This document shows positions 15,735-61,288 of a stretch of 64,000 bases of DNA, in pieces. The notes beneath the pieces are model-generated. The model was not told the DNA's origin, did no database searches, and was given only the letters and a program-made list of their open reading frames with translations. The DNA lies in assembly GCF_018873765.1 (NCBI RefSeq), contig NC_057924.1, positions 20,393,542-20,457,541 on the forward strand. Direction: 5' to 3'. This stretch comes from Telopea speciosissima. Taxonomy: Eukaryota; Streptophyta; Magnoliopsida; Proteales; Proteaceae. Each line of letters starts with the position of its first letter. Position 1 is the stretch's first letter. The position numbers were made by a program, and so were the translations under genes.

Positions 15735-16207
15735 AGGGGGCCTAACAATGCCAGTGTTATAAGGGATTAATCCATCAGTTTCTAGCTCTTACATTGTAAT
15801 ATCACACACAAGTCATTTCCTTACAAATGTCTTTGTGAAGCCATATCTCAGAAATTTGAACGAAAGCCCTTTTACTCTTTTACACGTGCACATTTGTTGC
15901 TAAATAAACTTATGGAGGGGATCGCTGCCACGTTGCGTGGCCACTTAACCAGCATGGGCCAGTGAGAGTGCAGGCAAAGGCATCCAAAAAGGTGAGTTTT
16001 TTCATTTCAAGGGGGAGGGGGTGTGGGGAGGTCATTTCACGTTTCCTATGTCAAGCATAGAGGGCACACAGCCTGACAGCATTCTTTTTCTCATAATCTT
16101 AAAATTTTCTCGATCGACCATGAGGCTTAACTAATAAAAGACATCAAACCTTCATCGTTCCAAATTGACAGATAAATCCACTTAAAATAAATTATCATGA
16201 GAAATGA
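15735..16207. repeat. Lipase-flanking repeat X, copy 1
   Basis: This segment recurs at about 19615-20029 and 41391-41858. Shared phrases include GAGTCATTTCC-type, 'TTGCTAAATAA', 'TGCCACGTTGCGTGGCC', 'AAAGGCATCCAA' and 'GGTGTGGGGAGGTCATTTCA'. Copies 2 and 3 are closer to each other than to this one. The copies sit before lipase 1, between lipase 1 and MULE1, and after lipase 2, so X is the spacer of a tandemly repeated lipase unit. Confidence 0.75.
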
Positions 16208-16216
16208 TTAAATTAA
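16208..16216. other. Empty target site of the large Mutator-like element
   Basis: TTAAATTAA occurs once here, in the context ATGA-TTAAATTAA-TGAC. In unit 2 the same 9 bp flanks MULE1 on both sides (20030-20038 and 35052-35060). This unit therefore preserves the pre-insertion state. Confidence 0.8.
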
Positions 16217-16544
16217 TGACATTCATTTACAGAGACTGGTTGGTTTGTAGCCGGGCTTGACTGGTCTGCTCTGGCTTTCCAATAGTTGATTAGATAAGTA
16301 GTGGTCCTTAAACTAAATTTTCCACGTCAAGTTTAGTTAGTATATATTAACATCTTTTAAAGACTTCTTCCCACGTACAATCGAGCATGCATGCATCCAA
16401 TTCATTTTTTCTCCCACGTTTTGTAATTGTTGAACTTTCAGATAAGTGAATGTTGACCTTTCTATAATACTATTTAAAAACTACAATTTTACACGTGTGA
16501 GATACGTTTGAGCTGGACTTAACACAACACAAATTTCCTTAATT
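16217..16544. other. Distal upstream region of lipase 1
   Basis: Non-coding. It aligns with 35061-35420 upstream of lipase 2, with shared phrases such as 'GAGACTGGTTGGT', 'TGTAGCCGGGCTTGACT' and 'ATGCATCCAATTCA', but the second copy has small insertions and deletions. It could hold promoter elements; none is proven. Confidence 0.5.
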
Positions 16545-16710
16545 CCTCTCAGTACCTGCCCAGTTAGGTTCGTAGGTTCCTCTCATAGGGGGTCAGAAAT
16601 GACGATCTCACCCCCTGCCCAAACACACTGATTGGGTGGGATGAGGTTGTCATTTTTGCCCTCCCTAAGAGAGGAACCTACGAACCTGGCTGGATAGGAA
16701 ACCTGAGAGG
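16545..16710. mobile_element. Foldback MITE-like element
   Basis: The 166-bp segment begins with CCTCTCAG and ends with CTGAGAGG. Its two arms are largely complementary: TTCGTAGGTTCCTCTC on the left pairs with GAGAGGAACCTACGAA on the right, with more pairing inward. It has no coding capacity. The matching region upstream of lipase 2 (about 35405-35440) lacks it, so it inserted after the units separated. A clean target duplication could not be assigned. Confidence 0.75.
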
Positions 16711-17180
16711 AGAAAAATTCCAAATTTTTTCATGGTGCAAGTTGCAAATTCAATTCTTTGAAGATATCTTGGTCACGCCCACCAGTTACTGTACTACTTT
16801 GAGAGGGTCTTTTGAACAAGCTGAATACATAAAAGGATAGCAATGAAACAACAAATCTTGTAGGGAATTTGGGATTAGCTTATGAATACTTATGAATACC
16901 AGTTGGTGGAACCAAGTTAGAATGGTAGGTTTAGGGTTGCCCTTGCCATATACATGGAAAGTGCGAAAGCACCTTCTTAGCTTCTTGATTTGAAAACCAT
17001 GTGACTTGGTCCAGCCAAACTCCAATTATATATAAATTGATAATCTGTGAGATAAGAAAACACAAGGAACTCCCAAAAATTCAATTAAGGGGAAGTTAAA
17101 GGAGAAATCTCTCTGATTCATTGTCTGTATAAACTTGTATTTTTGATTCACTGAGTTTGGAAGTTAGAAACAAAGAAAAG
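16711..17180 (+). promoter_or_regulatory. Proximal promoter and 5' UTR of lipase 1
   Basis: A TATATAAA box lies at 17029-17036, about 145 bp before the ATG. The same box at the same distance stands before lipase 2. About 4% of bases differ between the two proximal regions, which is about as conserved as the coding sequence, so both copies probably keep similar core promoters. Confidence 0.6.
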
Positions 17181-18636
17181 ATGGGTAGCCTTAATGAAAG
17201 CAGCATTTCCAAAAGATGGAAGCAGTTGAGCGGGCAGGATCACTGGAAGAGCATGCTGGACCCCCTCGACATCGATCTCCGGCGATACATCATCCACTAC
17301 GGCAAAATGGCTGAGGCTACATACGATGCCTTCAACTCAGAGAAGTTGTCCAAGTATGCCGGAAGCAGCCGGTACGGGAGGTCGGATTTCTTCTCGAAGG
17401 TGGGTTTAGATATAGGCAATCCATATAAGTATGAGGTAACGAAATTCCACTATGCCACATCTTCAGTGGACTTACCAGATGGTTTGATGGTGAAGTCTTT
17501 GTCGAGGGAGGGATGGAATAAGGAATCCAATTGGATTGGTTACGTTGCAGTGGCGACTGATGAAGGGAAGGAAATGTTGGGAAGGAGAGACATCGTGATT
17601 GCATGGAGAGGTACGGAACAAGCTTTGGAATGGGCTAACGACATGAACTTCATATTGGTTTCTGTTGATGATTCCATATTTGGGCCGGATGCCGACCATG
17701 TTGATGTGCATCGAGGCTGGTACTCGATGTATACTTCCGATAATCCACGCTCCCTCTACAACAAGTCTAGTGCTAGAGCCCAGGTAAATTCTTTTATTTA
17801 TTCCTCTGAAGAAGAAGCCGTACAAACCTATGTCATCAACTACTTCCAAGATCGTCATCCACTTTTTATTGTTATTCACTCACTTTCATTTATTTTATTT
17901 TAATTATATTTTTAATGACTATCTATATTTATTCTCCACTAACCAAACGGAGGCCTTAGATGGCGTTTCGAAAGAGAGGGAGAAAACGGTGGATTAAATT
18001 GTTTGTTTGGTGGTATTTCAGGTATTGGGTGAGGTGAGAAGACTAGTAGAAAAATTCAAGAACGAAGAGATCAGCATAACTATAACAGGTCACAGCTTGG
18101 GAGCAGCGCTTGCAACAATAAACGCAGCAGACATAGTTGCCAATGTAGTAAACAAGCCCAAGGACCAGCCAGACAAAGCATGTTTAGTGACGGCCTTCGT
18201 CTTTGCTAGTCCCCGCGTTGGAGATGGTGACTTTCGGAAGTTCTGCTCGGAATTAGATGACCTCCGAGTGTTGCGCATCACCAACGACCCTGACATTGTT
18301 CCCACATACCCGCGCTTTGGCTACGCCGATGTTGGACAGGAACTAGAGATCGACACTAGAGAGTCTAACTACTTGAAGCGTCCCGGCAATTTTTCAGGTT
18401 GGCATAACTTGGAGGCGTACCTGCATGGCGTTGCTGGGACTCAAGGGTCCAAAGGAGGATTCAAGTTAGAAGTTGATCATGATATCGCACGCGTGAACAA
18501 GTCCAAGGATGCGTTGAAGGATGAATATCATGTGCTTGCTTCGTGGTGGGTTGAGAAGAATAATGGGATGGTTCAAGATGCCAATGGTTCTTGGAAGTTA
18601 ATGGACCATGAGGAAGACATTGATTTTGGACTTTGA
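17181..18636 (+). CDS. Phospholipase A1 class II-like lipase, copy 1 (2 exons)
   Basis: Exons 17181-17783 and 18022-18636, joined in phase 0, give 405 residues. The 238-bp intron has GT/AG borders (CAG|GTAAAT and TTTCAG|GTATTG). The start is the first ATG (MGSLNESS); reading in from a TTG at 17157 is not needed. The product is a lipase_3-fold acyl hydrolase: AWRGT at 141-145, nucleophile elbow GHSLGAALA with Ser226, Asp292 in NDPDIVP, and His336 in LEAYLHG form the expected Ser-Asp-His triad. There is no chloroplast transit peptide, which with the length fits cytosolic class II PLA1 rather than plastid DAD1. Such enzymes release the sn-1 fatty acid from phospholipids, feeding stress and oxylipin signalling. 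It is 97.5% identical to copy 2. All key residues are present, so it is probably functional. Confidence 0.93.
17784..18021 (+). other. Intron of lipase 1
   Basis: 238-bp GT-AG intron, T-rich near its 3' end. The copy 2 intron at the same place is 341 bp and starts with the same bases, so it has gained or lost about 100 bp since duplication. Confidence 0.88.
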
Positions 18637-19318
18637 GTATTATCTTATATAATGTCAAAATGATTTGTATGATACATTCAACATCATATTTTTTGTTTCT
18701 ATTGCAGCTAAAATCCATTCTATTGTATTTTTTAATTGTTTGCAATAATTTATTAGGCTAGATCCAAAGTCTGTATTTTGTATCATCTGGGTATGCCTAG
18801 ACGTAAACTCTGTAATATTTTTTTATTTTATTCATTCTGCTAATCTTTAGCGATCTATCTATCTATCTATTTATTCTATTCTATCTATAAACGTACGTAT
18901 TCCACTTTCTTGCCCAATTTTTTCACATGACAAGAATACCCTTACTCTCTCTCTCTCTCCAAACCATTGGAGAGTGGTATCATCCATATGGAGTCCATAT
19001 AAGGGCCACATGGCCAGAGCGTTTCATTATGAGCCCCACTCTTTTATTACATGATACGGTATTTTGGAATTTGCACAAGCACAGTGCATGGTTCCTTTTC
19101 GGTATTATTTATATGAAAGCTATTATGTGCACCACCTCATGATGAAAACCTTTCCTTCATACAGTATTGTGTGCGGTGCGTAGGACTAATTTATTTAAAT
19201 TGACCTTTGGATTAGTTGTGAAGTTCAAAACCTTATTCCAATCAAGTGGGCTATCATATATTAAACTTTTGATTCGCACATTCAGTTATCAAATAAAAAA
19301 AATGCTACTCACTTTAGA
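18637..19318 (+). other. 3' flank of lipase 1
   Basis: Contains the 3' UTR. At about 18852-18880 is an (ATCT)n microsatellite, and near 18937-18960 a (CT)n run. The stretch around 18811-18835 (TAATATTTTTTTATTTTATTC) is the intact version of the site into which the MATE-carrying element inserted downstream of lipase 2. The rest aligns with about 39537-40020. Confidence 0.6.
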
Positions 19319-19376
19319 ATACAACAACAAATTCAGTCTTATCCCAACTTAATGGGGTTGACTACATGAATCCAAA
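19319..19376. repeat. SINE-like dispersed repeat fragment
   Basis: ACAACAACAAATTCAGTCTT followed by ATCCCAACTTAATGGGGTTG and ACTACATGAATCC. This wording resembles a very common dispersed plant repeat (CAACAACAA, CCTTATCCCA, GGGGTCGGCTACATGAATCC). The match is from memory. In unit 2 the same fragment is split by a LINE at about 40057. Confidence 0.4.
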
Positions 19377-19614
19377 CAAAACCAATTGGGGGAAATTAGG
19401 TCTAAACAAGAAAAAGGGGATAAAGAGATGACAAAAGAGAGATTGGGGAGGAGTTGAGAAAGATAAAGAATATAGGAGAATGAAAGATGAAAAATAAAGG
19501 AAAATGAAAGATAAAAGTACGAGGGAAAAAGGCACAGCCCAGCAAGTCAGGAGAATCTTAGCTAAATGAGGGTTTGCAATAATTTATATTTCCAAATTAG
19601 AAAATACATGTAGA

Positions 19615-20029
19615 CTTGAATGCCATTGTTATAAGTGATTTATCCATCCTTTTCCAGCCCTCACATTGCAGTATCACACATGAGTCATTTCCTTATAACT
19701 ATCTTTTGAAGACATGTCTCAGTAATTTGAACGAAAGTGCTTGTCCACTTTTATATGTGCACCTTTATTGCTAAATAATCTTAGGGAGGGGGATCACTGC
19801 CACGCTGCTTGGCCATTGCACTAGCGTGGGGCCCAATTAGAGTGCATGCAGAGGCATCCAACAAAGGCGAGATTTTTCATTTCAATGGGGGTGGGGAGGT
19901 CATTTCACACTTCCTGTGTCTGGGTACAGATGGCCCACTGCTTGGTAACATAACTAATAAAAGACATCAAACCTTCATTGTTGCAAATTGACAGATAAAT
20001 CTACTAAAATAAATTATCATGAGAAAGGA
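19615..20029. repeat. Lipase-flanking repeat X, copy 2
   Basis: Closest to copy 3 at 41391-41858. It ends at the 9-bp site TTAAATTAA (20030-20038), where MULE1 begins. It lacks about 40 bp present in copies 1 and 3 (the GCATTCTTTTTC region). Confidence 0.75.
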
Positions 20030-20038
20030 TTAAATTAA
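20030..20038. repeat. MULE1 target duplication, left
   Basis: TTAAATTAA, identical to 35052-35060 and to the single copy at 16208-16216 in the empty site. Confidence 0.8.
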
Positions 20039-20436
20039 GGGAAAATGATCCTAGAAACGAAAGCAGTATAATAGGTTGAGGTGATGGAAGTTTCACCTCC
20101 TCAGGCTCAAGAAAGGAGGGGGTCAAAGAGCACCCGATGGAGGTGGGTGGAAGAGAGAATCTGAGGTGCTCCTCTACTTCGAAGCAGTCAAATCTTGCTG
20201 TAGATCTGGTCTCTGCAACTCCTATCCAAGGGGTGGGTACGAAAGGTTGGAATTCCTTGTTCTCCTAGGGAGGTTGTGAGTGTTCTGAAGGGTTCTTTCT
20301 CCATTATGTTGCTCCCACTTTTGTTGAAGGTGCTAAGGTCGCTTTATATCCAAAGGGCCTTGTCATAGATGAACTAGGGGTATGGAGGAATACTCTTGTT
20401 GGCCATTTTCTTAGCAGACGCCCCCCTTTCTTAGTC

Positions 20437-21576
20437 GTGAAGAGTGGGTTGTTACGACAGTGGCAGTATGCGACCATGATTGAAGCAGGGTTTTTTGCCT
20501 TCAGATTTGCCGCTGAAGAAGATAAACTCAGGGTGCTAGGTGGTGGCCTATGGTATGTTCAAAGTAAACCACTTGTTCTCAGGGTTTGGTCTCCTTTTAT
20601 TGACCTTACCAAGCTCTCCTTCGATTCCCTCCTTATCTGGATCAACCTCCCTGGCCTTCCATTTCATTTATAGTCGGAGGGAGCGCTAAGTATTATAGGG
20701 AGTAATGTTGGAAATCCTCTTTATTCAGATATCTAGACAAGATCAAAGCAACGGTTATCCTACGCTAGAATCTATGTTGAAGTTTCTGCCTTATCTGATT
20801 TTGTGGAGTTGGTAACTATTTCGGAGGAGGGTGGTAGGTCCTTTGCCCAACCCGTCGTCTATGACTGCAAACCCCCCAAATGCTCTGTCTGCTTTTGTTT
20901 TGGACACACCGATAGTCAATGTGTAAGAGGGGGATCTGGTTATCATCCATCGCTGATGTCCTTTCCTATGAATGAACCTAATCTGGTGGATTTTCAGGCT
21001 GATGATGGGTTCTTAAGGCCTCGTCAAAGAAGGAGAAACAAATCACATAGAGAGCCCCAAGGCGATAGTGGGAGGGTTTTGGAAGCTAGAACTGTGGGCG
21101 TGTTGCAGCCGGAGCGGGGAGAGAAGAATTGGAAAACTCAAGGAGGTGGTAGAGAGGGGAACATGGGGTGGGTCCCATCGGGAGAGAGAGGAGATGTTGA
21201 GCTGCCCGTTGAGAGGATCCGGACTGCCAGGCTTTCGGATTTGGGTGTGGAGAATAGTTTCACGGTTTTGGGGACTGTACGAGGAGGTGGTGTGTGGGAG
21301 AAGGACTCTACTTCTGCTACTGTTCTATTGGGAGCAGGTCCTGAGGAGGGACAAGTAGCTGGTGCTAGCAGTAGCCGATTGGAGTTGGAAAAGGAGGGGG
21401 AACTGACGTTTCCTTTTGAACTTGCATCTTGTAATCAACTTCACCCATCCCATACAGCTGTCGTGTGCGTGGAAGATGGTGAACTCTTGGAGGGCATGCC
21501 TTTAGAGATTCTAGGAGCTACCCTAGAAGACCACATTGTGATCCCATATGTGGATCAAGTCCATAGGGGTAAATAA
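20437..21576 (+). pseudogene. LINE ORF1-like protein, broken
   Basis: The first piece (20437-20673) shows a DUF4283-type pattern: GFFAFRFAAEEDKLRVLGGG, then LWYVQSKPLVLRVWSPF, then WINLPGLPFHL. The second (20803-21576) has a CCHC zinc knuckle CSVCFCFGHTDSQC (CX2CX4HX4C) followed by a charged, Gly/Glu-rich tail. A stop and a frame change separate the pieces. ORF1 proteins of this kind bind the LINE transcript. A separate acidic frame at 21766-22347 has no recognised domain and may be the extended ORF1 tail. Confidence 0.7.
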
Positions 21577-22403
21577 CAAAGTGGATTGCAAAGAGCCCTC
21601 TTGTATGAATAAAAAAGTGGATTGTCAAGATAACTCAGTTTCTGAAGCAGCTCCTAAGTTAAAGAAGCATGGGGAAAAAAAGAAAGGGAAATACAAATAG
21701 AATCGTGAGAAATCTCTAGGTGGCAATTCTCGGGTTGTTGAGAGAGACTTGACATTGAGGACTCTTTGATTGTTGGGGAAGTCGTGGCAGTGAGGGCTAC
21801 TGCACTTTGTGACATGGTGGACCAAGGTAATCTCAACCACACTATGGTGGTTCCTGAATTTCAAGAAGAGGTTATCATCCACCAACCACCCGAGGGCACC
21901 TTGTTTATTGATCTAAATTTCCAGCAATGCACGTTGGAGGAAGAGAGAGGATGTGAGCAAATAGGGACTATGGAAGTTGCGGATCAGTGTGAGAGGAGTG
22001 GTGAAGAGTTTGACTTCGAATCTGATTTTGGGAGAGTACATAGAGTAGGTTTCTCCATTGTGGCTCCAATAGTCAAAGGTAATCAGCTTAGCGCTGTTGT
22101 TTCTATTGAGGCAGCCCAGATGTCAGAAGGGGTGGATTTATCATCTAATTGGTCTCTATCTAAGGAGGTGTCAGGTTATGAAGGTAGTAAGTCCCCTAAT
22201 AAGTGTTTACTTGGTTTTAACTCTGAAGTGGAGAGTTCTTTGAGACAATCCTTGCTAGCTATTGGTGGCTGCGTTGAGGGCAGAGAAAATGTGCCAATTG
22301 AGCTAGTCGACCAGCATTGCCGTCACAACACTCACCTTAAAATTTGATCTAGTAAGACGGGGGCTAATGAGGTGGTTAGCCTTTCTGATGAGGTGTCCAT
22401 TGA

Positions 22404-22975
22404 TTTTTTTTGCTAAAATTCAGCAAGAGATATATTACTATAGAAAAAAGGGGAGAAAGAAATTACAAAAAATAAGGAGAGACAAAAAATCACAAATAGA
22501 AAAGAAAGTCAGCTTCTCACCCACCTTCGGCAAGGCCATCAATCGGGAAGGAAACTAACCAAGCAAAAAAGAAGCTAGTAAAGCTTAACAAAATCTATAT
22601 CTTGGGCAATTCCAAATCCCATCCGTAGTCTTCAACGATAAAAGGAGGAGGAAGAGACCAACTAGCAGAAGCATGAGAAAGAGCAGCCTTCTTTGCCAAA
22701 GAATCCGCAGCATAGTTCATTTCTCGATAACAGTGAGTGATATGCCATATTGAAGCCTATAAAAATGGCTGAAAGAAGAGCCACTTTTGCAATTAAAACC
22801 AAGGAATTGAGTCATTGTTTATGCATTCCACAGTAGAGGCTAAATCACATTCCACCCAGAATTTTTGAAAACCAGTCTTGAATAAAAAAAAGGCCTTCAA
22901 AGAGGGAGAACCTTGGTACAGGCACAACCAAAGTGGGAGTTGGGTGATTCCTCCCATTCCTCCCTTTAATCCTAA
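22404..22975 (-). mobile_element. Antisense 3' fragment of a LINE
   Basis: On the minus strand the stretch near 22683-22735 reads CYREMNYAADSLAKKAA, the final conserved block of the LINE RNase H domain. The minus-strand 3' end carries GAATTTTAGCAAAAAAAA at about 22404-22421, a poly(A) tail. This is a short, 5'-truncated LINE copy lying in the opposite direction inside the larger LINE. The 5' limit (about 22975) is approximate. Confidence 0.65.
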
Positions 22976-23203
22976 TGGGAAAAAAGGTCAACTTTATATA
23001 TAAGTGATTAGTTGTTTGGGCCTGCTAATTATGTTCTTCGTTCCTCTTTCTATGGTTTCCCTTCAGCTTGATTAGGCTGTAGGTTAGGTCGTTGTTTTGC
23101 TGTGGAGTTTTCTCCTTGTATTCTTCCTTGTCTTTCTCCTTTTTCAGGGGTTGTTTCTTTGTGCTTTTTAATATCTTTTTTATTCATCCAAAACAAATTA
23201 AGG

Positions 23204-23350
23204 GAAAATTTTATGCCCCTCCCCTATACTATGACCTATTTACACATTCCTTCCCTGGACTTTCCCCAATTACATCCCATTCCCGTACAGTTTACAATAA
23301 ATTACTATTACACTCATGCCATTAGCGTTAAGTCGTAATGTGGCTTAGTA
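23204..23350 (+). repeat. MULE1 left terminal inverted repeat (main part)
   Basis: Pairs with about 34950-35051 in inverse orientation and aligns directly with 41868-42016, the left end of MULE2. Confidence 0.75.
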
Positions 23351-24044
23351 ATATTTTATTTACACATCTTCCTCTCTTTCCAAATTCGGATAAGCTTGAG
23401 TGGATGACCTCTACAAATGGAGTCTTTTCTGTGAAGAGTTGTAATCATTTTATTGCAAATGATTTATCGGAGGAGAGAAGTTTGGAAGCATCGACTTCAA
23501 GGAATCATCAACTTCAAGGAATCGTTCTTGGTCGGATGTGCCGAGGAGTGTATAGAAGAGAATCTGGAATTGTAGAAGTCTTACCAAAATTCAATGCTTT
23601 CTGTGGAGAGCATGTGCTGCTGGTGTAACGACAGGAGATGTTCTTTGTCATTGCAATATCAGTGTGGATCGATGTTGTGCTAGATGTGGATCGGTTGAAA
23701 CAATCACACATATTTTGCTGGGTTGTCATTTGCCCGTGCGGCCTAGTTTGGTTGTTCTTTGGGGCTCTTCATTCCTTCAGGAGATGATCCTTCTCTGTGT
23801 GACTGGATCATGAGTTGGAGCAATATCTCACGGGATAAGACCACTTAGCGTATGGGAATTTCTTTGTGCTCTTTCATATTTTAGTTTATGTGGAAAGCAC
23901 AGAATGACAATGTTTTTGGTCGTCGGGTTTGATCTCCATTAGAGGTTATTCAAACGTCTTTTCATGTTTTCCAAGAGTTTCATGATTCCCAGAGTCATAT
24001 TGCTTTGCAACCTTCTACGGCGAGCCATACTTCATCTTTGGTTT

Positions 24045-24288
24045 TATTGAGAGAAAGATCACAGTCGATCTTACCTTCCTTTCTCGATTTGTCATCACAT
24101 GTGATATACATATGATATGAATCCATCCAACTATGGCAACTCAATATCAATTGGTTATGGCTGAATATTTTGTATCACCCAATATTGGGTTTGCTATTCT
24201 TGGAGATCTAGAATCTCACATTATGTATCTTGTATATATATCCTTTTGGGATCATTTATTAATTTAAGGATTACCATTCACTCTATTA
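24045..24288 (+). repeat. Copia A 5' LTR
   Basis: 244 bp. Contains a TATATATCC-type box near 24234. Followed directly by the primer-binding site at 24289. Confidence 0.85.
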
Positions 24289-27200
24289 TGGTATCAAGAA
24301 CCAAAATAGCTCCACCGAGCTCCCCCTAAATTTTTTTTTCCTTTTTCTCTTCTTCTTCATGGCGGGCGAACTCGGTCCGGCTTCAGTCACCAACCCCCTT
24401 GCTACGGTTGAGACTACCACTCCCCCTTCGCCTTCCACTCCTTCTTTACACCATGTCCATCACTATATTTCCCTTAAACTCACTTCTAAAAATTATATCT
24501 TGTGGCGAACTCAAGTTGAACCATTCTTAGATGGTCAAGATATATTTGGACATGTCGATGGCTCCACTCCATGCCCGGAAGACCCCATTACAGCCGTTGC
24601 TTGGCGTCGTCAGGATTCCTCAATCTGTAGTATGCTTGTCTCCTCTCTCTCTCTGAAGAGGTGTTTCCCCTCATTGTTGGCAAGCGAACTAGTCAAGAGA
24701 TTTGGGACACATTATCCACTGCTTTCTCCTCTCCTTCAGAGAGCCGTTTGATGTCTCTAAACATGGCCATGACCGATCTTGAGCAAAGCTTGATGAGTCT
24801 ATGTTCCTTTTCCTACAATGTGCCAAATCAATTGCTGATGAACTATCTGCTACTGGTCACCCGTTGCGCCCAAGCTCCTTCAATCTTCATATTTATTTGG
24901 GTCTCAAATCTGAATTTCAATCTATGGTGTCCTCTCTTCTTACTCGGATAGATCTGATTGGTTACGATGATCTTCATTCCATGTTATTGAGTCATGAATT
25001 TATTCATGGCACATCTTTGAAGAAACTTACTGTGATCGATGCTACTACAAGTCCAACACCCATTACTGCCAACAATGTTCAGCGCACCACCCCACTTGGC
25101 AACCCCGGTTCCTCAAGTTCTCCAAATCGTGGAGGCCGTGGTGGGCGTGACAGCCGTGGTTTTGGTCGCCGTCGTGGTGCTTTGTCAACTAGTTATGGTC
25201 GTTTCTAGTGCTCCATTTGTAAACGGACGAATCACTCCATTGATCGATCCCAATACCCTACCACTTCCCCTTACCCGTTTCAGCCCACTTCCAACCCAAC
25301 TTCTCATTACCCCTACCCCAACCCACCGGTACCCTATAACCCTCCACTTTTACCCACCCCACATCCATCGACTGCCCTTCCATGTTACCCTGACACTGGT
25401 GCTTCACACCATGTCACCCCTGACATTCAGTCCCTATCTCAGTATGATGACTACCATGGACCGGATCAACTGCATGTAGGTAATGGTAAGGGTTTATAGA
25501 TCTCGCATGTTGGTTCTACCTCTATCCCTTCTTTGTCTTCTCGCTCCTTTTATTTACATAATGTCTTACATGTTCCAACTATCTCTAAGTCTCTTCTTTC
25601 AGTTCAGCAATTCTGTAAGGATGATAATGTTTTCTTTGAGTTTCACCCATCCCATTTTCTTATGAAGGATTAGGTAACCAAGGAAACAATTCTGTCCAGA
25701 CCGAGTAGAGATGGCTTATATGAGTTGCATTCCCAGTCCTCACCGTTTGCCCTTTCTGCTGTTCATGGTTCCCTCACTACTTGGCATCAGCGTCTTGGAC
25801 ATCCACATGAGCGTCTCCTCAAAATCATGCTTCAAGACAATAATCTACCTTCTCATCCTTCTAGTTTTAATAAAATTTGTAAGGCTTGTCAGTTAGGCAA
25901 AGCCAGTCATCTTACATTACCTGCATCTCCTAGTCGCAGTTTATTTTCATTAGACTTGCTTAGTGATGTTTGGGGGCCTTCGCCCACTCCTTCTATTTCT
26001 TCTCATCGTTACTGTGTTCTTTTTATGGATGACAACACAAAATATATATGGTTTTATCCTCTAGTCCATAAATCTGATGTTTTCACAATTTTTCCACAGT
26101 TCCAAGCTCATGTGGAACGTTTATTTGGTAGGAAGATTAAAGCTTTGCAAACTGATTGGGGGGGGGGGGGGTGAGTATCACTCCCTTCCCACCTATTTCT
26201 CAAAACTGGGAATTTCTCACCACCTTTCTGCCCCGCACACTCATGAGCAACAAGGTGCAGTTGAAAGACGTCATCGACACATTGTTGAGACTGGACTTTC
26301 CCTTTTTGCTCATGCGTCTATGCCCCAAAAATATTGGAATTTTACTTTTGAAACTGCTGTTTACTTAATTAATCGCATGCCATCATTGGTTTCTTTTGGA
26401 ATCTCCCCTTTTCAGTTAGTTTTTCATAAGTGCCCTGATTACTGTTTTCTCAAAGTCTTTGGGTGTCTCTATTATCCATGTCTTCGTCCCTTTAATTGTC
26501 ATAAAATGGAATATCGCTCATCAGCATGTGTTTTTCTTGGTTATAGTCCTTCACATATGGGTTATCGCTGCCTCAATCTTCAATCCCAGAAGTTCATAAT
26601 TGCCCGCCATGTGCGATTTGATGAGAAATCATTTCCATTCTCCCAATCGCCTACCCCTACTTCCCTCAGTTCTATGCCCTCCCTCACATGACCGTGGGCA
26701 TCAGCTCCCCTTATTCCTCCTCCCTTACCACACTTGCGAGATCCTCCTCCCTTACAATTATCTCCCACTCCCTTGCTGTCCATACCACCCTTATCCAATC
26801 AACCATCTCCACTAAACCATGAACCGGCCTCCCCCTCCCAGACCACCGTAGGCACTGAACCTCTCCCCTCTAGAACCCTGGCTCCTCCCTCTCCCCCTTT
26901 GCGTACCAGACCGGTTGCTGATCTTTATATGGACCCCCACCACCACCACCAATACCAGCTCCTACAGTTGTCCCAACTCCACCTCAGCCTGCCTCTATGC
27001 ATCCGATGCGGCTCCATTCTCATGAACGACAACCACAGGCACTAGATGCCATTGTAATTATTACAAAACCAACTTCTTTTTCGTAGGCTAATAAAGTAAT
27101 GGAGTGGCCAAGGCCATGGCTGAGGAGTTCAATGCTTTACTCAGGAATGGCACCTGGTCTCTTGTTCCCCGCACCGCTCAAATGAATCTTATTGGCAATA

Positions 27201-28606: not shown

Positions 28607-28850
28607 TATTGAGGGAAAGATCACAGACGATCTTACCTTCCTTTCTCAGTTTATCATCACATGTGATATACATGTGATATGAATCTGTCCAACTATGGAA
28701 ACTCAATATCAATGGGTTATGGCTGAATATTTTGTATCACCCAATATTGGGTTTCCTATTCTTGGAGATCTAGAATCTCACATTATGTATCTTGTATATA
28801 TATCCCTTTGGGATCATTCATTAATTTGAGGATTACCATCCACTCTATTA
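28607..28850 (+). repeat. Copia A 3' LTR
   Basis: 244 bp, about 93% identical by eye to the 5' LTR and preceded by a short purine tract (TTGAGGGAGTG). Confidence 0.85.
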
Positions 28851-51410: not shown

Positions 51411-51563
51411 CGTGACCTACTCCATTGGCCACAGTCTATGCTAGCCAGATCAGAGAAGCAAAACCCTAATAAGTACTGTCTCTTCCACAAAGAGAATGGG
51501 CACGACACAGAGGAGTGCTATCAATTGAAGAGAGAGATAGGATAACTTGTAAGAGCAGGAAGC

Positions 51564-52472
51564 TTGAACAAGTATGTGAAGGGGAGACGTGACAACCGCT
51601 CAGGCCAAGGAGACAGAGGTCGTGACGGAGACAGAGTGGAACCGAGACAAGAAGAAAGGAGAACAGATCGAGAGAGAGACCGCCCAGAAGAGAGGAGAGA
51701 TGCAGCAGAACCTAGTGGCACCAATGGACCTCCTATCCTCACCATACTTGGAGGACCGGGGCAAGAGTCCACCAGAAAAGCTAAACCCCATGCCAGGTTC
51801 GTGGGAGTAGTAGAGAAGCCAAGCAAGATAGCCAAGACCGAGGCGGTGATCTCCTTCTCGGATGAAGACCTAGAAGGACTAAAATTCCCACATGAGGATG
51901 CCCTGGTAGTACAGGTGGAGGTAGCCAACCGACCTGTACACAGGGTACTGATAGACACAGGGGCATCCGTTGACGTACTCTCCTTGGACGCCTATCTACA
52001 GTTCAGGTTCGGGGACGATCAGCTCAAACCAGAGCCCACGTACCTCCATGGATTCTCAGGTGCCACTGCCTCCATCAGAGGTACCATAGAACTACCCGTC
52101 ACCTTCGGGGTACACCCTCGACAAGTGACTATCATGGTGAATTTCATAGTCGTCAAGTCCGTGGTGTCCTTCAACGACTTCCTAGGGCGACCATCTCTGA
52201 CAGCCCTTAGAGGAGTCATATCGCCACTTCTCCTGAAGATGAAGTTCCCCACCGAGAATGGGGTAGGCGAAGTCCGAGGAGATCAGAAGAAAGCAAGGGA
52301 GTGTTATGCCACCTCCATGAAAAAGAACAATGGTAACACCCATGGAATGGCACTCTGCCTAGAGAACATGGTCAGTGACCAGAGAGATGAACAGACAGAG
52401 AGAAGAGGAAGACCAGTGGAAGACCTCATCCCATGGCCCCTTAGTCGGGACGACCCCTCCAAGGTCATATAG
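51564..52472 (+). pseudogene. Gypsy protease region remnant
   Basis: Contains the retroviral-type aspartic protease signature VLIDTGASVDVLS and a downstream FLGRP-like segment. The N-terminal third is a low-complexity Arg/Asp/Glu stretch. Confidence 0.75.
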
Positions 52473-52649
52473 GTTGGCTCGCTACTAAGCAAGGAACAAA
52501 AAGAAGGGCTTGGACACCTCCTCCAAGCGAACATGGATGTCTTTGCATGGTCGACCTCCGACATGCCGGGAATACCACGTTCCATAGCAAAGCACAGACT
52601 ATATGTCGACCCAACCAGGAAGCCCATTCAATAGAAGCGGCGTAACTTC

Positions 52650-54363
52650 GCCCTTGATCGACAAGCAACAATCAAGGAAGAGGTCGAGAAGTTAAGCCAG
52701 TCAGGGTTCATCAGAAAGGAGAAGTTCCCAATTTGGCTCGCAAACGTGGTCATGGTACCAAAGCCAAGTGGGAAGTGGAGGATGTGTGTCGACTACACCG
52801 ACTTGAATAAGGCATGCCCAAAAGATGAGTACCCACTGGCCATAATCGACCTACTGCTCGATGCCACCGTCGGCCATAAGATGCTGAGTTTCATGGATGC
52901 CTACTCCAGGTACAACCAGATCCTCATGCATGAGGGTGATGAGTCCTACACCACATTCCGGACAGACAAAGAGAACTACTGCTACAATGTTATGCCGTTC
53001 GGGTTGAAGAATGCACGGGCCACCTATCAGAGGATGGTCAACAAGATGTTCGAGGAGCAGATCGGGCGTAGCATGGAGGTATATGTGGATGACATGCTCG
53101 TGAAAAGCATCCATGCCAACCAACACCTGACCGACTTAGAGGAAGCATTCACAGTACTGAGGAGGAACCAGATGAAGCTAAACCCTGCAAAGTGCGCCTT
53201 TGGTGTAACGTCAGGAAAATTCCTGGGGTTCATGGTCTCAGTACGCGGAATAGAAGCCAACCCATCCAAGATCAAGGCCATCCAAGAGATGGCACCTCCT
53301 CGGATGGTCAGGGAAGTGCAGAGGTTGAATGGAAGGGTCATCGCCCTTTCCAGGTTCGTGTCACGATCAGGTGATAAGTGCTTACCATTCTTCAAAACAT
53401 TGAAGAACCTCCGAAGCCCTAAAGATTTCACATGGATAGAAGAGTGCCAGAAGGCGTTCGAAGAATTGAAGGAGTACCTAGAGATCCCACCACTGCTTGG
53501 GCGACCAGAACCTAACGAAGAGTTGCAGCTCTACCTGGCCGCCACCCCTGTCGCGGTCAGCGCAATACTGCTGAAGGAAGAGGACAAAGTCCAGAGGCCT
53601 ATCTACTACGTCAGCCATGTTCTGATCGATGTAGAGACCAGGTATACTAGGATCGAGAAGGTAGCCTATGCGTTGGTAATCGCAGCTAGGAAGCTATGAC
53701 CATACTTCCAAGCCCATACCATCACGGTCCTCACAGACCTACCTCTGAAGAAGATACTCCACAAGCCAGACGTCTCCGGACGATTAATAGCATGGGCGGT
53801 GGAGTTAAGTGAGCATGACATCAGGTTCCAACCAAGGACAGCCATCGAAGGCCAGGCTCTTACAGATTTTATTACAGAGTGTACCCTGTCTGAGATCGAA
53901 CCAGAGATAGGGGAACCCGAGGAGAAGGATCACGAATCGTGGGACATGTTCGTGGACGGGTCGAGTAACACGGTAGGAAGCGGCGCTGGCCTCATATTAA
54001 CTAGCCCCAAAGGATTTCGTATCTAATATGCTCTCCGATTCACCTTCCAAGCATCCAATAATGAAGCAGAATACGAAGGCTAGAGCCATCCAAGTCACAC
54101 ACCTATCCACCCAGAGCGACTCCCAGCTTGTGGTGAATCAGGTGAATGGAGAGTACGAGGCGAAAGATAATGGGATGGCATCATACCTTGCACGTGCTCA
54201 AGCATTGATCGAGGGTTTCATGAAGTTCGAGATGGTTCGAGTTCCCAGGGATGAGAACGCCGCCACCGCCGCCCTATCCAGGCCAGCCAATGAGGAACTC
54301 CGAAATTTTGCTAGTGCATTCTATGTTGAGATCCTGCATGAGCCAACGTATAAGGAAAAGTAG
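52650..54363 (+). pseudogene. Gypsy reverse transcriptase and RNase H region
   Basis: RT blocks KWRMCVDYTDLNKACPKD, then LSFMDAYSRYNQILM, then MPFGLKNARATYQRMVNKMF and YVDDMLVKS lie in order. RNase H follows (FVDGSSNTVGSGAGLIL). This is the typical Gypsy order PR-RT-RH. Confidence 0.8.
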
Positions 54364-54449
54364 GTTAACGAAATCGAGGAGGGACCTAGCTGGATGGACC
54401 CTCTACTCAACTACCTCTAGAATGACGTCTTACCAGAAGACAAGGCCGA

Positions 54450-55606
54450 GGCAAGGAAGATTAGGATGAGAGCTGCAAAGTACACCATCCTAGACGGGGG
54501 TACTGTACAAGTGGGGGGCAACAACACCACTACTCTGGTGCCTAGGACCCAAGGGGGCAGAGTACGCCCTAGTAGAAGTCCATGAGGGGATATGTGGAAG
54601 CCACATGGGGGGACGAGCCCTAGCCTACAAAATCCTCCGCCAGGGACTATACTGGCCACGAATGCAAGAGGAGGCCATCCAATATGCCAAGAAATGCGAG
54701 CAATGTCAGTTGTTCGCCCCAGTACCCCATCTACCCGCCACCAAGCTGACATCAATCCTCAATCCCATACCTTTTGCCCTGTGGGGACTGGACATCTTAG
54801 GCAACTTCACCGCAACACTGGGAAACAGAAAGCACCTGGTCGTCGCGATTGACTACTTCACCAAGTGGGTCAAAGCTAAACCCTTGGCCAAGATAATAGA
54901 GACAGAGATGGAGAAGTTCGTCCGCGACGACGTCATCTACAGGTTTGGAGTACCATAGATCCTCGTCTCAGACAATGGCAAATAATTCAACAACCCCAAA
55001 TTCCAAGCATTTTGTCACAGCTACAACATCGACTATCGGCCTGCATCGGTAGCATACCCATAGGCCACTGGTTAGGTGGAGGTCACCAATAGAACACTAC
55101 TGGAAGGAGTCAAGAAAAGGCTAGAGGGAGCCAAAGGGAAATGGGTCGAAGAGCTACCAAGCGTTCTGTGGGCGTACCAAACTATAGTACGGATACCCAC
55201 AGGAGAGAACCCATTCCGCCTAGCATATGGCACTAAAGCATTGGCGCTAGTAGAGGTCTACGCCATGTCCCATAGGGTTCTGCACTTCAACGAATGTACC
55301 TATATCGACGGACTATGGGCGAACCTAGACTTTATAGATGAGGTCCGTGAGAGAGCACTACTAAGGAACGTCGCCTACCAACAACGTACTGCCAGGTATT
55401 ATAATGCCAGGGTCAAGGAAAGGCTATTCCTACGGAGGGCAAGTGCATCACAGCCACAGAAGGCAGGGAAGCTGTCAGCCAACTGGGAAGGACCCTACAT
55501 AGTCTCCAAGCAGATATGCCCAGGGACCTACCGCTTGAATACTCCGGGGGGCAAGAAGGTAGACCGTACCTGGAACTCAGAACAACTGAAGAAGTATTAC
55601 CAGTAG
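54450..55606 (+). pseudogene. Gypsy integrase region
   Basis: Zinc-binding region (YAKKCEQCQLF), catalytic-core wording (VAIDYFTKWVKAKPLAKIIE) and a C-terminal region ending WNSEQLKKYYQ are present. Confidence 0.78.
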
Positions 55607-55623
55607 AAGCAAACAGCTCCATC

Positions 55624-55692
55624 AATAGTAGCAGTTAAGTAGTAGCAGTAGTGGTAGTGGTAACAGCAGTAGTAGCAGCAGCAGTAGCAGTA
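55624..55692. repeat. (AGT/AGC)n trinucleotide tract
   Basis: Imperfect run of TAGCAG/TAG units directly after the integrase end, before the minisatellite. Confidence 0.7.
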
Positions 55693-55794
55693 GACGACAT
55701 CATTGTTTCAAGGGCAATTTAAAAATTTTTATTCAAAATAAAGAGGTGTTTCAAGAATACTTGTCTTCTTCTACCACTCAATCGAATCACTGCC

Positions 55795-56640
55795 ACTACA
55801 CCAAGGCATTACGCCACCACGGAGGCTTTATGCCTAAGGCGTCATGCTACCATCGAGGCTTTTCGCCTAAGGCAACATGCCACCACTGAGGCTTTATGCC
55901 TAAAGCGTCATGCCACCAATGAGGCTTTCTGCCCAAGGCGTTATGCCACCACTGAGGCTTTATCCCTAAGGCGTTATGCCACCACTGAGGCTTCATGCTT
56001 AAGGCATTATGCCACCACTGAGGCTTTATGCCTAAGGCATTATGCCACCACTGAGGCTTCATGCCTAAGGCGTCATGCCACCACTGAGGCTTTATGCCTA
56101 AGGCATCATGCCACCACCGAGGCTTTATGCCTAAGGCGTCATGCCACCACCAAGGCTTTATGCCTAAGGCATCATGCCACAACTGAGGCTCTACGCCTAA
56201 GGCGTTATGCCACCACTGAGGCTTCATGCCTAAGGCATTATGCCACCACTGAGGCTTTATGCCTAAGGCGCTATGCCACTACTGAGGCTTTATGCCTAAG
56301 GTATCATGCCACCACTGAGGCTTCATGCCTTAGGCATTATGCCACCACTGAGGCTTTATGCCTAAGGCGTCATGCCACCACTGAGGCTTTATGCCTAAGG
56401 CATCATGCCACCACTGAGGCTTCATGCCTAAGGCATTATGCCACCACTGAGGCTTTATGCCTAAGGCATTATGCCACCACTGAGGCTTTATGCCTAAGGC
56501 GTCTTGCCACCACTGAGGCTTTATGCCTAAGGCGTCATGCCACCACCGAGGTTTTATGCCTAAGGCGTCATGCCACCACTGAGGCTCTACGTCTAAGGCA
56601 TTATGCCACCAAGGTCTGATGACCATCCAGGCACAAGGCC
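55795..56640. repeat. 33-bp minisatellite, about 25 units
   Basis: The unit is close to ATGCCACCACTGAGGCTTTA followed by TGCCTAAGGCGTC, repeated head to tail for about 0.85 kb inside the Gypsy, between integrase and the antisense frame. Because 33 is a multiple of three, the minus strand stays open for long stretches as repeats of GIKPQWWHDAL. These frames are products of the repeat, not evidence of a protein. Units vary mainly at GCGTC/GCATT and at CACTG/CACCG. Confidence 0.92.
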
Positions 56641-56850
56641 ACCAAGGTCTGATGACCACCAAGGCGCAACGCCACTACCAAAATCCCATGACTATCAAGG
56701 GTCATAGGGCACTAATGCGCAATCAACCACCAAGAGACAATGCAATCAAAGAAAAGCAACAGCGATCACATAGAGAAGTCATAATAGTTACAACTCAAGT
56801 TCAAAAAGGAAAAAGTTCAAGACGTCTACAAGATCGGTATGACCATAGGG

Positions 56851-59004
56851 TCAAGGGACCACAGAGGGGTGGGTCATCTCTGACCCAGTAGGAGACATCA
56901 TGTCCACCTTGAGAAGGCACGCAGCAGCACCCCCCTCAGGCAGGGCAGCCTCCACCTCTGACACTGGAACTCTCTCCACCACCGCTACACTAGGAAGCGT
57001 CGTAGCAAACTCAGAGAACCCCAAGACAGAGAAGTCATAATCGGGGGTCACCTCCAGGGCACAAGCAGCTAAGTCCCCGACCCCTCCCTCATAGGCAGGC
57101 TGAAGCTGTGCCTGATACAGCACCGACAACGCCGAGGACGTCTGGAACTCAGCCACAAATCGCTCGCCTACAGATGCCAGCTCCGCCTCATGACTCCCCC
57201 TCAACGAATAAAGCTCCTCCTCCAAGGCAAGAACCCTGGCCGAGCTCTCGGCCGCACCAGCAGAGGTCACACGAAGCTCCTCAGACACCTCTAGGAGCTT
57301 CCCGGATGCCACCACGAGCTCCTCCGATGCCCTCTGAGCGCCGGCCTTGGCCCTCTCGTAGGCATCGATTTGTCCGTGGAGCTCCCTCTCCACATCACGC
57401 AGGGTGCGCTGTATTTGCACCTCGCGAGAAGCGTGACCCTCCAGTCGAAGCACTGCCTCAGCAACATGGTGATGGACCTACAATCAACATGGCAAGCGAT
57501 AAAATACTCTAAGTATAAGTGGAGCAGGGAACATGACGAGATAAAAAAGGGATAACTCACCGAAGCCATATTATGGTAGAGAGTCTGGACCAGACACGCA
57601 TCGCTAAGCCTCTGCAAGGCCACTCACGCAGTAGGGAGCCTACCCCTGTCCACCCATTCCTGCGACACGCCGGCTCCAGCCAAGGTCGAGCCCTCCCGCA
57701 TGCCCAAGGTGATCACCAGGGACTCATCCATCGTGGGAAGATTAGTGGCAGTACCACCAGAGGAACTCACCCCTTTCCCCTTAAAGAGGGGCAATGCAGA
57801 AGACCCGGAAGGGGTGATAGATGGAGGCAGAAGCACAGAGCCCAAAACACCATCATCATCAGGAAAAGTACGGGGAAGGAGGACACGCACACCAGAGCTC
57901 GTCACATGGGCATGTCTTGAACCACCCTTCCGCTTTGCCCCAACAGCCATAGGCGCAGAAGGACCACCAACATCTGTCACTCCAGCAGATGGACCACCCT
58001 GAGAAGCGGCCTTCCTCCGTAGATTGCCACGGAGCAAACTATAGTCCGGATGCATATCCACTGCACAGACCGCCCAACCAGTCAGATGACATATATATTC
58101 AAATACAAACATGCCAATCAAGTACAAAAGACAGTGCTCTTACCAGGACTCAGCTTCCAGAGGGAAAGGAAGGCCTTCGAGTCCAACTCCTGGACGTGGA
58201 ACAGATCGCGACCCATGCACAGCTTGAGGGAGTCACCCTCAAAATCACTCAGCTCAAGCCCCTGGTTGACCCTCTTGAGGTTAATGACTTCCCTAATAGT
58301 CTGTAGTGGACATCGGGGGACCATGGCAAAAAAGAAGCTATCCCTCTAATACTTCACGTCGCTAGTGATCCCTGTGAGAAGCTCCAAAGAGGCATAGGGC
58401 CCCTTGAGCACGCGGCGAACAAAGTGATAACATCCATGATTCCCTTTCTTCAACAAATAAAAGTGGGAGAATAGGGGAACAGTGGCGCACGCCCCAGGTG
58501 GGCGAAAAAGACATAGAAACCCAAGATCACCCTCCAAGAATTGGGCAACACCTGCCCGGGGGTGAGGTGCCAATGCTCTAACACCAACTCGACAAAGCGA
58601 GGGATAGGAAGGCAAAGGCCTTGGAGCAAAAAGGAACAGTAGAGACAGATCTCATCCACACGGTGAGAAAAGGCATACTCGCCAGGTCCAAGAATACTTA
58701 ACACGACCTCAGCGGGAATATGGAACTCCTCACGGAGGGAGACCAAGTCAGAAGGGGACAAGATGCTAGCAACATGACCTAACCTATCAATAGGACCGAC
58801 GACTGAGGACGCCGCCCCAGAAGGCCTACGATCTCTACTAGGACCAGAGACACTCGAAGGTCCCATACCCCCATCAATAGCACTGGGGGAGGGTATAGAG
58901 GATGGAGTAACCATAGAAGAAGGCGATCCTGGGGAACGCTCCTCTGAAGATCCAACCCCGACTGAAGCAGGGCCAAGGTCACCCAGAAACGACATGAGCG
59001 ACAA
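56851..59004 (-). pseudogene. Antisense frames of the Tat Gypsy (Transposase_28-like)
   Basis: On the minus strand, opposite to gag-pol, are frames at 58450-59004, 57624-58127 and 56851-57453. The first has LLQGLCLPIPRFVELVLEHW and PGQVLPNSWRVILGFYVFF, which match the domain catalogued as putative gypsy-type transposon (Pfam Transposase_28). The last is a coiled-coil-like Ala/Glu-rich stretch (for example RASEELVVASGKLLEVSEEL). Antisense extra frames in the region before the 3' LTR are known from Tat-group elements such as Grande and Retand, where the transcripts may be spliced. Function is unknown, and this copy is broken. Confidence 0.7.
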
Positions 59005-59138
59005 GAGAGGAATGGACTACTTACTCGAGAAAGCGATCTCCCAGACAAGAAGCTAGCAAGAAAAATGAAATGAAGGCCACCTACAAAGTATAAATAGCAG
59101 ATCCATCACAGATAAGAAGAAGAAAAGTGGAGAAGCAT

Positions 59139-59515
59139 GGGGGTCCATCACACCCACGCCGCGGCCACCATAGGGGAGGCCTCACACCCACAGGCACAGC
59201 CATCCCAGGCGCGGCCTCACATCCGCAGGCGACGGCCACCCAGGCGTGGCCTCACGCAGGAGCGATGACTCAGCGGCCTCACGCCATCAGGCGCAGCCAC
59301 CCCAGGCGCGGCCTCACACCCACAGGTACCGGCCACCTAGGCGAGGCTTCACAAGGGCATGGTGACCCAGCGGCCTCACACCCCACAAGCGCTGCCTCAC
59401 ACCCCACAGACGCGGCGACCCAGGTGCAGCCTCACGCCCCACAGGGGCGGTGACCCAGGCGCGGCCACCCTAGGGGCGGCTACACCTGCAGGCGCGACCT
59501 CACCTAGGCGAAACC
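59139..59515. repeat. GC-rich GGCGCGGCCTCAC array in the Gypsy 3' interior
   Basis: About 20 imperfect units of 17-22 bp built on GGCGCGGCCTCACACCCACA. The same core occurs in both LTRs (49060-49235 and 60205-60380) with a slightly different spacer. It is followed by a T-rich/A-rich stretch on opposite strands at 59520-59565. Confidence 0.75.
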
Positions 59516-60110
59516 CTGCATAATAAATAAATAAAAAAAAAAAAGAAAGAAAAAGAAAGAGAAGAGGTCGAACTTACCTCAGGGGGAAGGCGATTGCACG
59601 GGGAAGCAGGAACACGATGATGTGGCCACACCACTGGCACGATCAAGTGACAGAGACCACCAGAGGCAAGGCACTCAAGCCAAGCACCACTCAAGCCCTC
59701 CAAGTAAACAAGGCACCAAGTGAGCACAAAGCAAACACAAGGACCCAAAATTAAGCAAAATGGATACTAGTCTAGGTGACCCAAAGACAAGCACATGGTG
59801 GGTACCAAAAAGAGGACAAAAGACAAAAGTGTAATGCAAAGGAGAAATTCAAGAAGAGCAAAAGGGGAGACAAAAAGTAAGAAAGAGAAATGAGAAGTGA
59901 AAAAAGAGAAAGTGAAGGAGAGGAACATATATCTACAAAAAATAAAAGAAGAAAAAGTGTAGGAGGAAAGGTTTGAACCCCCAACCTCTCCTACCTCACT
60001 AATAGATTTACAGGCAAGCCTCGCAAAGAAAGCTTATTCGCAGCGGACCCCTCACTATGTAAAGGCATCTACTCTCTTGGACATCCTATCTCAAGAGAGT
60101 GGGGGGCAAA
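59516..60110. other. Gypsy region before the 3' LTR
   Basis: Purine-rich (59520-59960) with no recognised coding. It ends with the polypurine tract beside the right LTR. Confidence 0.6.
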
Positions 60111-60895
60111 TGATACATCCAAGATTCACCGGACCAATCAGCGGCTGCCACGCGTCACAGAATGATCCGCTTCAGAACCAAGGAGAACCAACCGGGGGTC
60201 CCACCCGGGCGCGGCCTCACCCAGGCGCAGCCTGCACCTTGGGGTGGCCTCACCCAGGCGTGGCCACACCCAGGCGCGGCCTCACCCAGGTGTGGCCTGC
60301 ACCCAGGAGTGGCCTCACCCAAGCGAGGCCACACCTAGGCGCGGCCTGCACCCAGGAGTGGCCTCTCACCCAGGAGCGACATCGTGGACGCAGATGTGAT
60401 GTACACGGACACCAGGGCTACTCGTTTATGACCCAATCGTGTCACTACAGACTCATGTCACCACCAGGACTCTAGGCCACCGCTTAAAAGTCACGTCACC
60501 CAGACGAATTCAAGCACTAATGACGTTATCACCACACGCGAGTATCTTTCCACCAAGGATCTTGATACCACCAGGACACTCCCTCCCGCGGGGAGATGGC
60601 CAATCAGGATAGAGCCCCATTACCCAGGGCCTCTATCCACTCAACGGCATAATCGCCATCAAACTGGGACTCTCCACACCGCCATACACTATTATAAAAG
60701 GCAAGGTACACAACCCCATTGGGGGACATCTAAAACTCATATTGAATAATTACTATTCATCTATTTGCTCAGGAGATCTAACTTTGGCATCGGAGAGCCC
60801 TAGGCCAGAACCACACCAATTCTCTCTATTGACCCCTTGGTCTACTTGCAGGTGACGGCACTCGCAGGACCGATCGACGATTTTTTGACGCAACA
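60111..60895 (+). repeat. Gypsy 3' LTR
   Basis: 785 bp with the same ends and the same GC-rich array (about 60205-60380). It differs from the 5' LTR at about 7% of aligned positions, mostly C/T and G/A changes. Confidence 0.9.
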
Positions 60896-60981
60896 ATGGC
60901 CGTCACCTATTCAAGAAGAAGAAAGTGAGACGAGCAGAAACTAGGATCGCTAACTCGTTGGAGTAGCGGCAGATGATACCA

Positions 60982-61229
60982 TATTGTGACTTAGAATTCT
61001 ATATGTATTTCATTAACAATCACAATGTAGTTTTATACAAGAGAAAGGTTATAGACACCCTAGAGGATAGGATCAGATCCTTCACATGTGATCACGATTA
61101 CAATAGGAAACAAATCCTAGAATCTTGCACATGTGATAACGGATAGAATAGGAAAGAAATCCTAATTACAATCAATGACTAAACCGTATATAGAGTTACT
61201 CTTTGAGAGAGAGTCTATATACGCCAATA
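60982..61229 (-). repeat. Copia C 5' LTR
   Basis: 248 bp, TATTGTGAC to GCCAATA. Confidence 0.87.
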
Positions 61230-61288
61230 TTTACCAGTTTGAGTTATCAAATTTTGGGGGAACCGAGGCAAATGACTGTAGGCTTCGT

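Follow-up and report, generated by a model that had tools for sequence, protein, structure and literature searches.

Nested insertions, empty sites and divergence switches in a class 3 lipase array of Telopea speciosissima point to growth by unequal recombination

A window of 64,000 nucleotides from Telopea speciosissima (C9:20393542-20457541; genome of 822.9 Mb) holds a row of class 3 lipase units with transposons nested between and within them, and raises the question in which order units and transposons came into being. The analysis also took in adjoining sequence, 40 kb on the upstream and 80 kb on the downstream side, and every position, including those beyond 64000, is given in window numbering. 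Our data make it highly probable that the lipase genes form a tandem array that grew by unequal homologous recombination, in which the transposons are markers and, at least twice, the recombining sequence. The evidence consists of target site duplications (TSDs), empty sites, nesting, block divergences and divergence switches, all of which were observed directly. For empty sites, the flanks of an insertion (host, spacer or Mutator-like element DNA only) were joined and aligned with the partner copy; flank figures below are matches per aligned bases to the left and to the right of the join. Raw and Kimura two-parameter (K2P) divergences were computed block by block between array copies.

Lipase unit 1 (16217-19618, + strand) contains two open reading frames (ORFs; 17157-17903 and 18007-18636) that match the Pfam family Lipase_3 with E values of 8.5e-07 and 2.1e-24, and the second coding block is open in all five units examined, which identifies the array as one of class 3 lipases. 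It lies between the spacer blocks E0 (15715-16216, +) and E1 (19619-20038, +). The first coding block of unit 2 (35052-41396, +) is 96.1% identical to that of unit 1, and unit 2 together with the following spacer E2 (41397-41867, +) is 97.3% identical to unit 3. The array extends beyond the window, with unit 3 from 83303, unit 4 from 92886 and unit 5 near 104-108 kb. Between the aligned blocks of units 1 and 2, positions 16538-16728 hold a dispersed repeat about 180 bp long. It was found at 32 or more other places at 85-89% (40 of 1438 candidates scored), and since most of these also match on the opposite strand (75-80%), it is probably a foldback element.

The spacers carry copies of one Mutator-like element (MULE). 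MULE1 with its nested insertions (20039-35051, +) is flanked by the 9-bp target TTAAATTAA at 20030-20038, the end of E1, and at 35052-35060. Its 5′ end is split by a further insertion at 20047-23194. MULE2 (41868-64000, +, continuing to 83302) has its left target copy at the end of E2 (41859-41867) and its right one at 83303-83311, beyond the window. MULE3 starts at 90117 and is broken off at 90922, where about 15 bases of filler and then a stretch homologous to 81355 onward follow (a long terminal repeat, LTR, plus part of a long interspersed nuclear element, LINE). The inverted ends match over about 80 bp at 84-85%, and TTAAATTAA flanks all three copies, which places them in the MULE class. 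E0 ends in a single copy of this target (16208-16216), and the joined flanks of all three copies, MULE1 (87/100 and 67/72), MULE2 and MULE3, can be aligned over this point. A further empty target, differing by one base, lies next to unit 5 at about 103.8 kb. Mutator-type transposase is missing from non-autonomous MULEs; no Pfam family was found in the eight core ORFs of 62-87 amino acids scanned, a selection of short ORFs, and this fits a MULE of that kind. The MULE core (43558-44583, 34300-34817) is matched at about 86% by a locus on contig 8 (L052), whose flanks yielded no match to the ends of the MULE; judged from these matches, part of the MULE itself may be a captured segment.

An earlier note on this stretch had named single, empty copies of the targets of MULE1, a MATE-carrying element and three Copia elements, and one LINE with the same target in both MULEs. 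All of these were confirmed: homology to the partner extends to either side of each empty site, and for three of the insertions (Copia B, Copia C and the shared LINE) related MULE copies at other genomic loci agree. The shared LINE has the 12-bp TSD ATATTTTATTTA in both hosts. The MULE1 copy (23363-29386, +; TSD at 23351-23362 and 29387-29398, the right one with one mismatch) is interrupted by Copia A, and the MULE2 copy (42029-43201, +; TSD at 42017-42028 and 43202-43213) is 5′-truncated and comprises the RNase H end (RVT_3, 1.6e-12). The 12-bp repeat TTTACACATCTT (42025 and 43674) was ruled out as the TSD, with genome copies setting the edges at 42028 and 43202. The LINE is absent from a MULE copy on contig 1 (L058). 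When the MULE-LINE junction was used as a probe, 40 of 107 genome-wide candidates were scored; three matches span the junction, all in this array, 20 cover the MULE side only and 17 the LINE side only. Two of the 20 MULE-side matches end about 35 bases before the junction, one MULE-side match passes it by 8-9 bases and one LINE-side match begins 14 bases ahead of it, all of them tallied by side. We infer that the LINE entered the MULE after its arrival at this locus.

MULE1 and MULE2 differ in three blocks at 61/799, 105/1244 and 54/641 positions (7.6-8.4%), or by 8.1, 9.1 and 9.0% K2P; the earlier note gave about 9% for a sampled stretch. The adjoining spacers E1 and E2 differ by a similar 7.8% (equal-age p 0.76), which indicates that MULEs and spacers were copied together. 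Values for E0/E1 and E0/E2 are 16.8% and 13.8%, and those for lipase units 1 and 2 are 9.4 and 8.8% in mostly noncoding blocks and 12.6% in the 5′ block. Divergence falls to 2.7% between units 2 and 3, with 2.8% between the 5′ ends of MULE2 and MULE3, and to 0.8% between units 3 and 4. The single segment duplication proposed earlier thus has to be replaced by at least two events (8-9% and 2.7%), with a third (0.8%) outside the window.

Two sharp switches in divergence are found along these copies. MULE1 and MULE2 show 47 mismatches in 34359-34722, followed by only 3 in 34723-35051. This switch (34722/34930) delimits a breakpoint interval at 34723-34929 (no strand assigned) and appears to be the mark of an unequal crossover of MULE1 with MULE2. 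The second switch, at 81917-82373, takes divergence from about 3% down to 0.65%; it adjoins units 3 and 4 and lies inside a large LINE insertion of 21.3 kb in MULE2 (61290-64000, +, on to 82588). This LINE is flanked by the 14-bp TSD CTGTAGGCTTCGTA (61276-61289 and 82589-82602), has an A-run before 82589 and encodes a reverse transcriptase (RVT_1, 3.9e-11, at 61297-62082). Like the shared LINE in MULE2 (42029-43201), it combines a TSD, of variable length in such elements, with an A-run and a LINE-encoded domain. Its target is empty in MULE1 (34341-34354, +; 49/50 and 42/50, no gap at the join). The end of MULE2 formerly placed at 61288 was rejected, because the large LINE has its first target copy at 61276-61289 and MULE2 picks up again at 82589. 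Two LTR insertions interrupt this LINE in turn, one between about 62076 and about 72636, the other an LTR pair at 74085-81624. In MULE3, portions of the large LINE and of an LTR inside it have survived, 2.7-3.7% from the MULE2 versions, so these insertions predate the first crossover.

Other insertions are specific to one copy. Copia A in MULE1 (24045-28850, +; LTRs 24045-24288 and 28607-28850) is flanked by GGTTT at 24040-24044 and 28851-28855; the target is empty in MULE2 at 42665-42669 (+; 93/99 and 92/100, gapless join). Its Pfam matches are copia-type gag (3.7e-07) and gag_pre-integrs (7.3e-14). Copia B, also in MULE1 (30118-33655, −), is flanked by TACAT at 30113-30117 and 33656-33660, and the target is single in MULE2 at 43938-43942 (+; 94/100 and 87/99) and in the contig-8 relative L052. 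It has an LTR pair and a 5-bp TSD and resembles Copia A internally, in inverted orientation; the one ORF scanned matched no Pfam family. The MULE3 break (90915-90940; L015) is situated 4 bases beyond the homologue of the Copia A target, with about 15 bases of filler after it, and this nearness may be a coincidence or reflect a weak spot.

A third insertion in MULE1, present only at its 5′ end (20047-23194, +), has the 15-bp TSD AAATTAAGGGAAAAT and an empty counterpart in MULE2 (93/100 and 91/100, gapless join). The two ORFs scanned gave no Pfam match and no long A-run was seen; a CCHC-like motif was noticed by eye in the ORF at 20803-21576. From the TSD and this inspection by eye, the insertion is a candidate LINE.

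In MULE2, Copia C (44584-61229, −; LTRs 44584-44831 and 60982-61229) is interrupted by a Gypsy element and flanked by TTTAC at 44579-44583 and 61230-61234. Its target is empty in MULE1 at 34295-34299 (+; 48/50 and 49/50) and single in L052 and L057, both on contig 8. A copia-type gag was matched at 48346-48747 (2.3e-16), while three further ORFs scanned matched no Pfam family. Copia A and Copia C both have an LTR pair, a 5-bp TSD and a copia-type gag, as is typical of Ty1/Copia elements. Around the Copia C target (34255-34354), MULE1 and MULE2 differ at 2 of 100 sites, compared to 10-14% in the neighbouring 100-base windows; this may be a small conversion patch or chance.

The Gypsy element within Copia C (48972-60895, +; LTRs 48972-49743 and 60111-60895) is flanked by ATGGC at 48967-48971 and 60896-60900. 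RVT_1 (1.2e-30), RT_RNaseH_2 and RT_RNaseH, together with the LTR pair and the 5-bp TSD, identify it as Ty3-type; two of three other ORFs matched no family and the third gave a match just under the cut-off. The element also contains a 33-bp tandem repeat array and several opposite-strand ORFs downstream of pol (55704-56762 and 56851-59004), a feature of some Gypsy lineages.

Lipase unit 2 has received two insertions. A Pack-MULE-type element with a MATE gene fragment (37686-39527, −) is flanked by TTTATTTTT (37677-37685) and TTTATTTTA (39528-39536), alike at 8 of 9 positions. The empty target, formerly given as about 18815-18832, was placed in unit 1 at 18822-18830 (89/98 and 91/100). MatE was matched at 38044-38283 (3.6e-14) and, just below the cut-off, at 38331-38690 (1.9e-05). 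Genome matches with and without the captured segment put its edges at about 38069-38635, with MULE sequence on both sides; a captured host gene fragment within MULE ends is what defines a Pack-MULE. Among the 40 matches scored out of 98 candidates, the whole probe was matched at seven remote places (91-94%) and the MATE part alone (query 66-632) at two places on contig 4 (92-93%), with others covering only the flanks (1-67, 631-701). On the basis of these matches, the two contig-4 places may be close to the source. The second insertion, a LINE 3′ fragment (40066-41094, +; RVT_3, 2.4e-12), is present in units 2 and 3 and missing from unit 1. Another LINE, at 10439-13143 on the minus strand (reverse transcriptase RVT_1, 1.3e-18), lies outside the nested array events.

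Could the copies have arisen in another way? Independent insertion of MULE1 and MULE2 beside two lipase units would agree with the identical 9-bp target at a homologous place, but the same LINE occupies the same MULE base in both, and the divergence of the adjoining spacers matches that of the MULEs, which leaves this explanation hardly any probability. A long gene conversion, by which one of two older units overwrote the other and made units 2 and 3 alike, deserves somewhat more weight and still appears unlikely. The low-divergence stretch of units 2 and 3 runs for about 8 kb (34.72-42.67 kb; 0.7-7.1% in 300-bp windows) across gene, spacer and MULE and stops only at the MULE3 break, and an extra lipase copy is the natural product of a crossover. 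Several observations nevertheless speak against a history of simple insertions and two crossovers. In MULE3, about 100 bases (~34621-34722) resemble MULE1, which is not accounted for by a single crossover, and this tract favours conversion in so far as it indicates that conversion-like patches do occur. The LINE fragment at 40066-41094 has no clean TSD and 8 gap columns at the join, and no clear TSD was found for the LTR pair at 74085-81624. Finally, unit 4 could be a misplaced allele, given that its divergence of 0.8% from unit 3 is near the heterozygosity of 0.76% reported for T. speciosissima (PMC13080361); the position of the second switch inside the large LINE weakens this possibility. 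Unequal crossover is the reading we prefer for both switches.

Can LTR divergence date the insertions? The LTRs of Copia A, B and C differ at 15/244 (6.1%), 15/254 (5.9%) and 8/248 (3.2%) positions, close to the values of about 6.6, 5.9 and 3.2% that had been said to fit the order of events. This fit did not hold once the Gypsy pair, omitted earlier, was included. Since Gypsy lies within Copia C, its 5-bp TSD intact, it must be the younger of the two, but its LTRs differ at 73/770 positions (9.5%), about three times the value of its host (Fisher p 0.001). The two kinds of LTR differ in composition: the share of CG plus CHG sites is 25% in Gypsy and 5% in Copia C. We fitted a Poisson clock to 11 pairs, in which transversions and the transitions at CG, CHG and CHH sites each had a rate of their own (15/243 was used for Copia A, 15/244 being the edge-corrected count). 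Relative to transversions, the fitted rates were 10.5 for CG, 8.3 for CHG and 3.4 for CHH transitions. The context-weighted ages of Gypsy (0.021) and Copia C (0.013) were not separable (p 0.17, and again 0.17 with rates learned without both pairs), nor were they on transversions alone (p 0.39). One age fits Copia A, B, C and Gypsy (p 0.44), so LTR divergence cannot order these four. By context-weighted age, Copia A (p 0.0009), Copia B (p 0.002), Gypsy and the 62-72 kb LTR element (p computed as 0.0 for each of the last two) all predate the event that separated units 2 and 3.

The raw conflict disappears only under context weighting or on transversions alone; with just the CG/CHG sites dropped p was still 0.013, which implies that CHH sites matter too. 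In age, Copia C and the 2.7% event cannot be told apart (p 0.33), and against the MULE split Copia C comes out as nominally the younger (p 0.035). Since Copia C must predate Gypsy, its LTR figure is probably too low, by chance or by conversion. Instead of site context, conversion homogenising the Copia C LTRs, or exchange of a Gypsy LTR with other copies, might explain the conflict; we regard this as possible, though doubtful. The corrected age of Copia C remains below that of Gypsy, and gene conversion has been proposed for such inverted pairs in PMC7251063. In a sample of 30 LTR copies of the Gypsy family, the two LTRs are mutually only 11th nearest by distance among 29 others, and they are joined in the best tree with a support of 50/25, compared to 98/75, 93/67 and 89/61 for three other pairs. 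These three, the only others with both LTRs sampled, were recognised by their spacing of 10-11 kb and have K2P values of 6.7-7.6%, against 10.3% for the nested Gypsy. The family tree is, however, star-like, its end branches being long and 2 of its 27 inner branches starred, and it still joins the pair; the 8 differences of Copia C are scattered along its LTR, and the site composition differs as stated. LTR exchange between Gypsy and other family copies may have occurred. That the clock is inverted here mainly by the CG/CHG-rich Gypsy LTRs, and that such a context effect, more than gene conversion, lies behind a large share of inverted nested pairs in plants, is a tentative suggestion which we hold with low confidence.

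The order of events comes from nesting and copy comparison; the LTR clock does not supply it. In the history that we propose, an older lipase duplication would have been followed by insertion of the MULE in the spacer between two units, of the LINE in that MULE, and by duplication of the lipase-spacer-MULE segment (8-9%). Copia A, Copia B and the LINE-like element would then have entered MULE1 only, the MATE-carrying Pack-MULE and the LINE fragment lipase unit 2, and Copia C, Gypsy within it, the large LINE and the two LTR elements within this LINE MULE2; these ten steps are ordered among each other only in part. Thereafter, MULE1 and MULE2 would have misaligned and crossed over near 34.7-34.9 kb, giving the third lipase unit (2.7%), most of the middle of MULE3 would have been lost, and a second exchange, inside the large LINE, would have produced the fourth unit (0.8%). 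From the corrected ages only, MULE3 would formerly have held Copia C and Gypsy. The backbone of the order in the earlier note (lipase duplication, MULE, LINE, segment duplication, copy-specific insertions, with Gypsy after Copia C) finds support in the shared and empty sites and in the block divergences. As MULE1 holds Copia A and B and MULE2 holds Copia C, topology gives no order among these three. The seven events counted there are an undercount, as 17 are listed here.

The array is ordinary in kind but unusually complete, in that many insertions and duplications can be placed in order. With many hard orderings (nesting, shared insertions, empty sites) at one locus, divergence dating becomes checkable: raw dating fails for the GC-rich Gypsy and mostly recovers with site context. 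Transposons very probably served as exchange points in the growth of a gene array. If the context reading is true, arrays with several hard orderings could be used to calibrate a context-aware clock.

All elements and processes at this locus are of known kinds. It is textbook knowledge that tandem gene arrays grow by unequal crossover between repeats. As in such arrays, whole units were added here with junctions at homologous points of repeats; the difference lies in two successive exchanges with sharp switches, one in a MULE and one in a LINE. With known Pack-MULEs the MATE element shares MULE-like inverted ends, a 9-bp TSD (8 of 9 alike) and a gene segment that recurs genome-wide, with no notable difference. 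A literature search turned up nothing closer to this locus than PMC7251063, and no context-based treatment of inverted nested LTR pairs, which is no proof of absence. PMC7251063 reports 1042 of 4126 nested LTR pairs with the more diverged element inside, and the terms CpG, cytosine, methylat and GC content do not occur in its main text. Gypsy in Copia C resembles these inverted pairs; it differs in that gene conversion is proposed in that paper, whereas at this locus site context removes most of the gap.

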